Both the position numbers and the translations under genes were made by a program. This document shows, in pieces, positions 19,626 through 21,233 of a stretch of DNA of 64,000 nucleotides. The stretch lies in the NCBI GenBank assembly GCA_022750295.1, contig JAKIVZ010000001.1:69651-133650 (forward strand), read 5' to 3'. Under the pieces are notes generated by a model, which saw only the letters and a list, made by a program, of their open reading frames with translations, was not told the DNA's origin and did no database searches. This DNA is from Candidatus Lutacidiplasma silvani. Its GTDB lineage: Archaea; Thermoplasmatota; Thermoplasmata; Lutacidiplasmatales; UBA184. Every line of letters starts with the position of its first letter. Position 1 is the first letter of the stretch.

Positions 19626-20290
19626 TCAGGTCAGCTGCGGCGGTCGGTGGACCCACCGCTCGACGAAACGGACCGCGCCGACGGCCGTGAGCGCCGCGGC
19701 GGGGGCGGCCAGGAAGTAGACCCACAGGTCCCCGTACGTTCCAGAGAGGAGCGCCGGCGCCAGCGAACGGGCCGGATTCAACGGACTTCCCGTGGATGGT
19801 CCGGTCACGAGGGTTGAGAGGGCGACGGCGAGTCCCGGCCACGTTGGCCCCCACCGTCCGACGCCCGTCCCCCTGCGGACCTGGCCGAATACCGTGACGA
19901 TGCAGAGAAACGGGAAGGCGAACTCGGTCCAGAAAACGGCGACCGGCGCGTTCGTCGCCGGAATCGTCGCGCCGACGTGGGCGCGAGTCCCGAGGAGGAC
20001 AGCCACCGCCCGACCCGGCGATCGCCCCGACGACCTGGGCTCCGACGTGCCAGGGAAGCTCGCTGGGCGGCAATCGACGGTCGGCGACACGCGCGAGGCT
20101 CACGACCGGATTCCGGTGGGTGCCGGAAATCGAGGCGAACGCGACCACCGGGATTGTCACGGCGACGAACCACGCGATTGCGAGGAGGGGAAACCGGGCG
20201 GACCCGACTCCCACCGTCGCCACCAACGCCCCCGTTCCGATCCCCACGAGGAGGCCGGTCCCCACGAGTTCCGAGACGAGTCGCGAGATC
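19626..20290 (-). pseudogene. Aquaporin (MIP/AqpS-like) with frameshift
   Basis: The first half (about 20290-20015, 'LVSELVGTGLLVGIGTGALVAT', then 'SGTHRNPVVSLARV') and second half (about 20010-19626, 'FWTEFAFPFLCIVTVFGQV', 'SPLNPARSLAPALLSG') are in different frames of the minus strand. Joined, they make a six-helix major intrinsic protein with two pore motifs, NPV and NPA. The frame change falls near 20005-20020 in a GC-rich run. The first half has no ATG; GTG at 20265 or an ArsC fusion are possible starts. Beside an ArsC-like gene, the family match is AqpS, the aquaglyceroporin that exports arsenite in some arsenic operons. Real decay or an assembly indel cannot be told apart here. Confidence 0.72.
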
Positions 20291-20693
20291 CGAGCTCCGC
20301 CCGGAGAGCGCCGGCCCGCGCACGAATCGAATCCCGGTCGGCCCGGTACCCGTCGTCGTCGAGCCCCGCCGGATCCGGGAGCCCCCAGTCCCGCGGCCGG
20401 ATCGCGGCGAGATTGGCGGGGCAGCTCGCATCGTCGAGACACCCCATCGTGACCACGACGTGCGCGAACGGCAGCTGGTCCGGTCGGAGTTCCTGGAGAC
20501 GGTGCCTTGGGAGGGCGAGACCGATCTCGTGGAGGATCCGTTCGGTCCGCGGGTTCGGGTGGGTCGCCGGTCTCGTCCCGGCGGAGTCGGCGACCCAGCC
20601 CGCGGGCGGGTTCGCGTGGAAGATTGCCTCGGCCATCAACGACCGCGCGGCGTTCTCCCCGCAGATGAACAGCACCCGTCGTTCGGCGTTCAC
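20157..20693 (-). CDS. arsC: ArsC-like arsenate reductase (low-molecular-weight phosphatase fold)
   Basis: GTG start at 20693, overlapping the TGA of the small Cys-rich ORF (GTGA). 'RRVLFICGENAARSLMAEAIF' holds the C-x5-R phosphate-binding loop (C-G-E-N-A-A-R); 'DSAGTRPATHPNP' and 'VVVTMGC...DWGLPDP' (acid Asp) follow as in thioredoxin-coupled ArsC/LMW phosphatases. The conserved domain ends at 'SIRARAGALRAEL' (about 20280); the remaining ~40 residues to the stop at 20157 overlap the aquaporin coding region in another frame and are probably not native. So the gene either lost its stop or was fused to the aquaporin. Predicted to reduce arsenate to arsenite in the cytoplasm. Confidence 0.82.
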   Translation of the reverse strand: MNAERRVLFICGENAARSLMAEAIFHANPPAGWVADSAGTRPATHPNPRTERILHEIGLALPRHRLQELRPDQLPFAHVVVTMGCLDDASCPANLAAIRPRDWGLPDPAGLDDDGYRADRDSIRARAGALRAELGSRDSSRNSWGPASSWGSERGRWWRRWESGPPGFPSSQSRGSSP

Positions 20694-20779
20694 GCGCTCC
20701 GGCAGCAGCTTGGCTGGCTTGGGACGTCGCGGCAGTCGCACTGGCAACAGCAGCAGCAACACCCCTTGCATTCGCTCAC
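20690..20779 (-). CDS. 29-residue cysteine-rich peptide (metallothionein-like)
   Basis: GTG at 20779 preceded by GGAGGTG (20790-20784), a good ribosome-binding site four bases away. The peptide begins MSEC, has a run of six consecutive Cys (residues 7-12), then CQ-C-D-C spacing (C14, C16) and a final CC (25-26): 11 Cys in 29 residues. Its TGA overlaps the GTG of arsC, implying translational coupling. The ORF is missed by length cut-offs. Position behind a palindromic operator and before arsC suggests a thiolate binder, chaperone or buffer for As(III) or another soft metal. No homologous family is known to me; the coding call rests on the RBS, the overlap and the composition. Confidence 0.65.
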   Translation of the reverse strand: MSECKGCCCCCCQCDCRDVPSQPSCCRSA

Positions 20780-20793
20780 GGTGCACCTCCGCC

Positions 20794-20812
20794 CACTTCA
20801 AAGAGTGAAGTG
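20794..20812. promoter_or_regulatory. Palindromic operator in shared divergent ars promoter
   Basis: Perfect inverted repeat CACTTCA-AAGAG-TGAAGTG. The adjacent CATAAGG (20814-20820; CCTTATG on the minus strand) is a TATA-like element lying 26 nt before the regulator GTG (20841) and 25-30 nt before the ribosome-binding site of the Cys-rich peptide. A dimeric repressor bound here would cover the start region of the ars transcript and abut the TATA box for both directions. The HxlR-type protein at 20841 is the obvious candidate ligand. Confidence 0.7.
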
Positions 20813-20840
20813 TCATAAGGCGCCGCTACGTACGTCCGAA

Positions 20841-21233
20841 GTGGAGCGGGAGTGCTGCGACGGGGTGTACCAATGTCCGTGTCCGCCCGTCGGTCTCATC
20901 GATGTCGTGGGCAAGAAGTGGGCGATGTGCGTCGTCTCGCTGCTCGGCTGGAATGGCGAGCTTCGCTTCGGCCCGATCCAGCGGTCGCTCCCGCGCGTCA
21001 GTCCCGCGACGCTGACGGCCACCCTGCGGGCTCTCGAGCGGGAGCGGCTGATCCGACGCTCGTCGTCCGGCGTGGCGCGCGGCTCTCCGGTCTCCTACGG
21101 GTTGACGACCCGAGGGACCGAACTGTACCGAAATCTTCTCCCGCTCGCCGGGTGGCTTCGAAATCCCACTCCCGGCCGTCGACCGGTCGTCCCGACGGCC
21201 GTCTCACCGCGGCAACACGGACGAACGGCTTAA
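20841..21233 (+). CDS. HxlR-family winged-helix regulator with N-terminal Cys cluster
   Basis: 130 residues, GTG start 27 nt after a TATA-like CATAAGG, so probably leaderless. Core: 'LIDVVGKKWAMCVVSLLG', 'RFGPIQRSLPRVSPATLTATLRALE', 'LIRRSS' wing and 'YGLTTRGTELYRNLLPLAGWL', the HxlR (DUF24) winged-helix pattern. The N-terminus carries C5, C6, C12 and C14 ('ECCDGVYQCPCPP'), plus a Cys in the first helix. HxlR-type sensors such as YodB use an N-terminal Cys for redox or electrophile sensing; here the clustering and the divergent arsC suggest As(III) or metal sensing (inference). It replaces the usual ArsR/SmtB repressor of arsenic operons. Confidence 0.85.
   Translation: MERECCDGVYQCPCPPVGLIDVVGKKWAMCVVSLLGWNGELRFGPIQRSLPRVSPATLTATLRALERERLIRRSSSGVARGSPVSYGLTTRGTELYRNLLPLAGWLRNPTPGRRPVVPTAVSPRQHGRTA

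Follow-up and report, generated by a model that had tools for sequence, protein, structure and literature searches.

A conserved cysteine-rich micropeptide gene behind a putative HxlR operator in arsenic loci of soil Thermoplasmatota

Introduction

Arsenic operons are usually described as sets of a regulator, a reductase, a pump and a methylase, in which ArsC consumes arsenate and produces arsenite, and genes as short as the one reported here are routinely overlooked in annotation. Bacterial metallothioneins of the SmtA type (PF02069) resemble the micropeptide described below in being small and very cysteine-rich, with CC and CxC motifs and few aromatic residues; the micropeptide differs in being half as long, with no histidine or zinc-finger-like fold expected, in carrying up to nine consecutive cysteines, in being tied to ars operons and in leaving PF02069 unmatched. 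Phytochelatins, which chelate As(III) and Cd(II), are likewise short and thiol-rich, but they are enzymatically made gamma-Glu-Cys chains, whereas the micropeptide would be made by ribosomes. The HgcC family (NF040962), named for the adjoining mercury methylation genes hgcAB, includes a member with a Cys-rich N-terminus and CC repeats that lies ahead of arsC in some relatives of the present locus; unlike these AbrB-type proteins, the micropeptide has no AbrB-type domain. Polycysteine leaderless sORFs of mycobacteria (Canestrari et al. 2020, cited here through the review PMC9031893) are the precedent for attenuation by tiny reading frames that contain Cys codons in a row and precede a gene of an operon, an arrangement that the micropeptide shares; it departs from them in having an SD sequence and conserved non-Cys residues, in giving no RNA structure signal at the four loci folded, and in occurring also behind an operator of its own or in a locus that lacks arsC. 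A search of open-licence papers for literature joining HxlR with arsenic, or for the phrase 'archaeal metallothionein', returned none.

Results

A cysteine-rich reading frame overlapping arsC

The micropeptide gene was analysed within a 64-kb window, by which we mean the whole stretch of DNA under study. Its locus comprises the following features.

19626 to 20286, minus strand: aqp, a channel gene of the MIP/aquaglyceroporin family, split by a frameshift (PF00230 in both pieces; tblastn with the channel of the related locus L038)
20157 to 20693, minus strand: arsC, an arsenate reductase of LMWP fold with a CX5R loop and a later GC-LDDAS-CP pair (PF01451, 6.7e-15, 56 bits)
20690 to 20779, minus strand: Cys-rich micropeptide MSECKGCCCCCCQCDCRDVPSQPSCCRSA (direct reading; relatives keep the ORF; purifying selection in frame)
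20784 to 20790, minus strand: ribosome-binding site GGAGGTG, 4 nt ahead of the micropeptide GTG (direct reading)
20794 to 20812, no strand assigned: inverted repeat CACTTCA-CTCTT-TGAAGTG, a putative HxlR operator (CTTCA-N5-TG(A/T)AG ahead of 31/31 reading frames)
20813 to 20818, minus strand: TTATGA, a TATA-like sequence abutting the operator on its upstream side and a probable promoter element (column conservation)
20841 to 21233, plus strand: divergent regulator of HxlR type, unusual at its N-terminus, where it bears additional cysteines, ECC..CPCPP...KKWAMCV (PF01638, 5e-15)

Direct reading bore out the description of this reading frame in an earlier note: it runs on the minus strand from a GTG at 20779 to a TGA at 20690, is preceded by the ribosome-binding site with the spacing GGAGGTG-CACC-GTG, and ends in a stop that overlaps the arsC start as GTGA (20693-20690). 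Eleven of the 29 residues of the product are cysteines, namely C4, a run of six (C7-C12), C14, C16, C25 and C26. No other ORF of 20-60 aa on either strand of the window has a cysteine content of 20% or more. When the 127-nt region was shuffled with dinucleotide composition preserved, closed ORFs with at least 11 cysteines arose in 0/20,000 shuffles and those with at least 8 in 15/20,000.

The ratio pN/pS was calculated on alignments built on protein letters, a procedure biased toward frame 0, and between the window and L038 it was 0.34 in the peptide frame, the two remaining frames giving 0.70 and 1.51. Further pairs behaved alike (0.26 vs 1.39/0.91, 0.23 vs 1.56/2.78 and 0.31 vs 2.36/1.04 in frame and out of frame, respectively), and other close pairs mostly gave in-frame values of 0.1-0.6, the very close pair L054/L090 differing at too few sites to tell. 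Summed across 55 pairs that are not independent of one another, substitutions fell 383, 322 and 664 times on codon positions 1, 2 and 3, respectively. Relatives keep both the frame and the Cys pattern, and in-frame pN/pS lies well below 1; these were the points on which the earlier note had made the reality of the gene depend. A chance ORF was rejected given the outcome of the shuffles at 11 or more cysteines, the frame-specific constraint and the existence of 29 members, and we conclude that the micropeptide ORF is a real gene.

Two sub-forms of a previously undescribed family

Homologous or analogous Cys-rich micropeptides, 29 members in total, were found in genomes of related Thermoplasmatota (Ca. 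Lutacidiplasmatales), all of them MAGs. The search started from arsC, present in 88 of 106 genomes of the order and giving 92 classified loci, and HxlR relatives were additionally sought in named genomes; the members comprise those of 26 arsC loci together with L140, L151 and L159. They are 22-42 aa long and contain 5-15 cysteines each (mean 32% Cys), with a CC pair in every case, CxC in 10 and none of W, Y, F or H in 19. Nearly all share one position: the inverted repeat lies immediately ahead of them, with the divergent HxlR-type gene on one side and arsC on the other; at two loci (L020 and L082) this slot is taken by low-Cys ORFs.

The poly-Cys sub-form includes the window peptide, L038 (MSGTENCGPCCCCCCCKCDCSESTSKPGCCRSA), L003, L044, L026, L043 and others, and a second sub-form, with the C-terminal motif CCDPxxCPPGCCDxCC, includes L005, L012, L025, L053, L079, L081, L101 and others. 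Runs of at least five consecutive cysteines occur in 10/29 members (six in the window peptide, up to nine elsewhere) and are not found in the second sub-form, whose motif also conserves the non-Cys residues D, P and PPG. Variation between species is large, with a mean column identity of 24%. The closest pair, the window peptide and L038, shares CCCCCC-x-CDC...CCRSA; L038 belongs to the same genus as the window genome and is identical to the AcS13-54 locus. Several member loci are matched identically by AcS13-54, AcS1-3, AcS11-62, SubAcS15-25 and other records, which are Ca. Lutacidiplasmatales records of a published study (PMC9287336); the text of that study contains no word starting with 'arsen'. 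Given its kinship with L038, the window genome is most likely a member of Ca. Lutacidiplasmatales as well. On the arsC tree the micropeptide is scattered, with at least 13 changes of presence, and as this tree is poorly resolved, gain cannot be told from loss, nor can associations be corrected for kinship.

Neither Pfam nor NCBIfam has a match to the window peptide, and none of the further members tested exceeded a Pfam cut-off, the 40-aa L055 giving a sub-threshold keratin match (18.6 vs 27 bits). The A2 profile matched nothing in PDB sequences and, beyond the family, nothing convincing among 400 genomes of the class and 390 of the phylum, the G408 match (E 0.0076) being at chance level across 390 genomes; since this profile models the CPPGCC sub-form only, poly-Cys members elsewhere could be missed. 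A search for plasmid-borne relatives, run with the low-complexity filter on, found none. The earlier note had known of no described family of this kind, and the database comparisons agree; we regard the micropeptides, on their sequences, as a previously undescribed family of soil archaea (Thermoplasmatota). Their sequence features fit the loose, class-level definition of a metallothionein (<10 kDa, Cys-rich with CC/CxC, few aromatics or His), and we read the micropeptide as metallothionein-like rather than as proven to belong to a metallothionein family. In that sense the metallothionein-like peptide that had been proposed for an archaeal ars operon is genuine and conserved.

The putative HxlR operator as constant partner

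CTTCA-N5-TG(A/T)AG, always with a spacer of 5, precedes the start in 31/31 cases, that is, in the 29 members and in L020 and L082. Because the repeat had been noticed in these sequences before it was counted in them, a control count matters: among loci lacking the peptide as well as the HxlR-arsC arrangement, it lies within 260 nt of arsC in 1/50. The TTATGA falls in a conserved block, GTACGTAGCGGCG.CTTATGA.CACTTCA. Micropeptides are present in 23/39 HxlR-headed arsC loci as against 3/53 others (Fisher p 1.6e-8, kinship ignored), the three exceptions retaining an operator-like repeat (with one mismatch in L005), and none was found in ArsR-headed loci among the 92 classified. An independent-pairs test of peptide against HxlR had only 2 usable pairs on the poorly resolved tree.

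In L151 (JAKIVU010000012.1) HxlR is followed by an operator and the peptide, and then by a second operator and arsM-arsC-aqp, so that one copy of the promoter-operator block serves the peptide and another arsM-arsC-aqp, and in L159 the peptide lies behind the operator without arsC. These two loci indicate that the micropeptide is a member of an HxlR regulon and not an appendix of arsC, and that what stays constant beside it is the HxlR operator and not arsC. The coupling to arsC emphasised in the earlier note holds as regards the overlap of stop and start, but it is not the defining link. At arsC-linked loci an SD-like 4-mer precedes 21/26 micropeptides, and few of the arsC starts behind them have an SD of their own, for which reason translation of arsC probably depends on the micropeptide ORF.

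The divergent gene encodes an HxlR winged-helix domain (PF01638, 55.6 bits vs a cut-off of 20.8), and C12, C14 and C30 are invariant in an alignment of nine sequences. Among the relatives, many ars operons are headed by HxlR-type regulators with an invariant CPCPP...KKWAxCV-like Cys set. We know of no arsenic-sensor role in the HxlR family; these cysteines make such regulators a possible arsenic sensor.

The efflux partner of the peptide is a MIP channel in 24/26 loci and Acr3 in 2/26, whereas HxlR-type loci without the peptide are divided between MIP (9) and Acr3 (9) (p 0.003, kinship ignored); in the window genome, which is ~91% complete, Acr3 was not detected. The window arsC has PF01451 with FICGENAAR (CX5R) and a later Cys pair in TMGCLDDASCP, as in thioredoxin-coupled LMWP-type ArsC, although equivalog models, and PRK13530, scored under their cut-offs. 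In alignment with L038 its homology stops near 20265 and the ORF continues into the aqp region. The aqp frameshift lies between 20011 and 19991, where the sequence is ~2 nt short compared with L038; both irregularities may reflect either an error in the MAG or decay of the operon end.

Discussion

We propose, with a probability of about 0.6, that the micropeptide is an HxlR-controlled, metallothionein-like thiol sink in the arsenic regulon, acting on As(III) or another soft metal. Cysteines of the divergent HxlR-type regulator would sense arsenite, or a related thiol stress, and the regulator would then leave the CACTTCA-N5-TGAAGTG operator and allow transcription of the operon with the micropeptide as its first gene. 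Ribosomes that finish the micropeptide would re-initiate at the overlapping start of arsC, coupling the two, and the 5-15 cysteines of the micropeptide could bind As(III) coming from ArsC (or another soft metal) and buffer it until exit through the MIP channel. The sensor role of the regulator, the use of the operator, the translational coupling, metal binding and the identity of the metal are all inferred in this scheme, and the metal assignment in particular is guessed from the gene neighbours. The earlier note had imagined arsenite being handed to the reductase, which is chemically backwards, since ArsC makes arsenite from arsenate; taking arsenite from ArsC would be plausible. For the other recipient that the note named, the aquaporin, a hand-over may be possible, but tight binding would oppose passive efflux. 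A tight As(III) sink also has no evident benefit beside such a channel, the micropeptide appears dispensable because ~40% of HxlR-headed loci lack it, and in the window MAG the channel gene is itself frameshifted, all of which speaks against the proposal. The more specific version, in which the family is a ribosomal arsenite binder induced by a Cys-bearing HxlR sensor, made together with ArsC and serving as a sink mostly where a channel replaces Acr3, is tentative, and we would place it somewhat under even odds.

The strongest rival holds that the Cys codons form a cysteine-responsive translational attenuator of arsC, with the peptide itself jobless. This would suit a first gene of the operon whose stop overlaps the arsC start, and the Cys-codon runs of five or more in 10/29 members, but the peptide of L151 has its own operator apart from arsM-arsC-aqp, L159 has no arsC, and the non-Cys residues of CCDPxxCPPGCCDxCC are conserved. 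Nor is RNA folding better than in shuffles (z +0.5 to +1.8 at four loci), although archaeal mechanisms might differ; usage is not shifted to the rarer Cys codon (TGT 21% vs 30% in neighbouring genes); and the mycobacterial precedent is leaderless, while the arsC-linked micropeptides mostly follow an SD. Of two concrete forms, stalling at rare Cys codons was rejected on the absence of TGT enrichment, and an attenuator hairpin is less likely given the absence of excess folding at the four loci; so weakened, the attenuator seems unlikely.

Next in order, and likewise improbable, is a specific metallochaperone that passes As(III) among ArsC, the HxlR sensor and the channel (or ArsM) instead of buffering it in bulk. 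The strict co-occurrence with the HxlR operator and the C-terminal CCxxCC spacing kept in many members both speak for it, but a mean column identity as low as that found here is unusual for a docking partner. It is also possible, though we think it quite remote, that arsenic is incidental and that the peptide binds Cu(I), Zn(II), Cd(II) or Hg(II) in the manner of a metallothionein, or serves the recycling of ArsC as a pool of redox thiols: poly-Cys and CxC equally suit Cu(I), Cd(II) and Hg(II), and the HxlR family includes the thiol-stress sensors YodB and YybR, both of which match the family model, yet arsenic genes adjoin nearly every locus. By far the least credible reading is that there is no such gene, the ORF having arisen by chance in a CTG/TGC-rich stretch, which the shuffles, the frame-specific constraint and the 29 members oppose, or the true product being an ArsC extended N-terminally from an in-frame ATG at 20816, for which the arsC frame is open in the window and, across the peptide, in 12/26 loci, but which sits within the TATA/operator block and is excluded in 14/26 loci by in-frame stops inside the peptide region.

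If the proposed thiol sink is real, a conserved Cys-rich micropeptide encoded by the first gene would add a binding step to arsenic operons and would amount to a gene-encoded analogue of phytochelatins that holds As(III) inside the archaeal cell, in a group for which we found no metallothionein report in the open-licence literature. It would also point to an arsenic regulon that is of the HxlR and not the ArsR type and has a clear operator.

Other first genes were seen in HxlR or arsC loci. The window genome has a second arsC locus (L002), without a micropeptide, that lies behind arsM and an HxlR relative; here an operator of the same type as at the micropeptide locus precedes arsM, whose product has CC pairs close to its N-terminus, followed by arsC and a channel gene. 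In L162 and L066 the micropeptide slot, behind or beside the HxlR gene, is filled by an Rdx protein (SelW-like, CxxC; PF10262) ending in SCC, and in L023, L065 and L078 a protein with a Cys-rich N-terminus stands upstream of arsC, that of L023, the one tested, matching HgcC (NF040962). These alternative first genes (Rdx ending in SCC, HgcC-like and arsM with CC pairs) are likewise thiol-rich.
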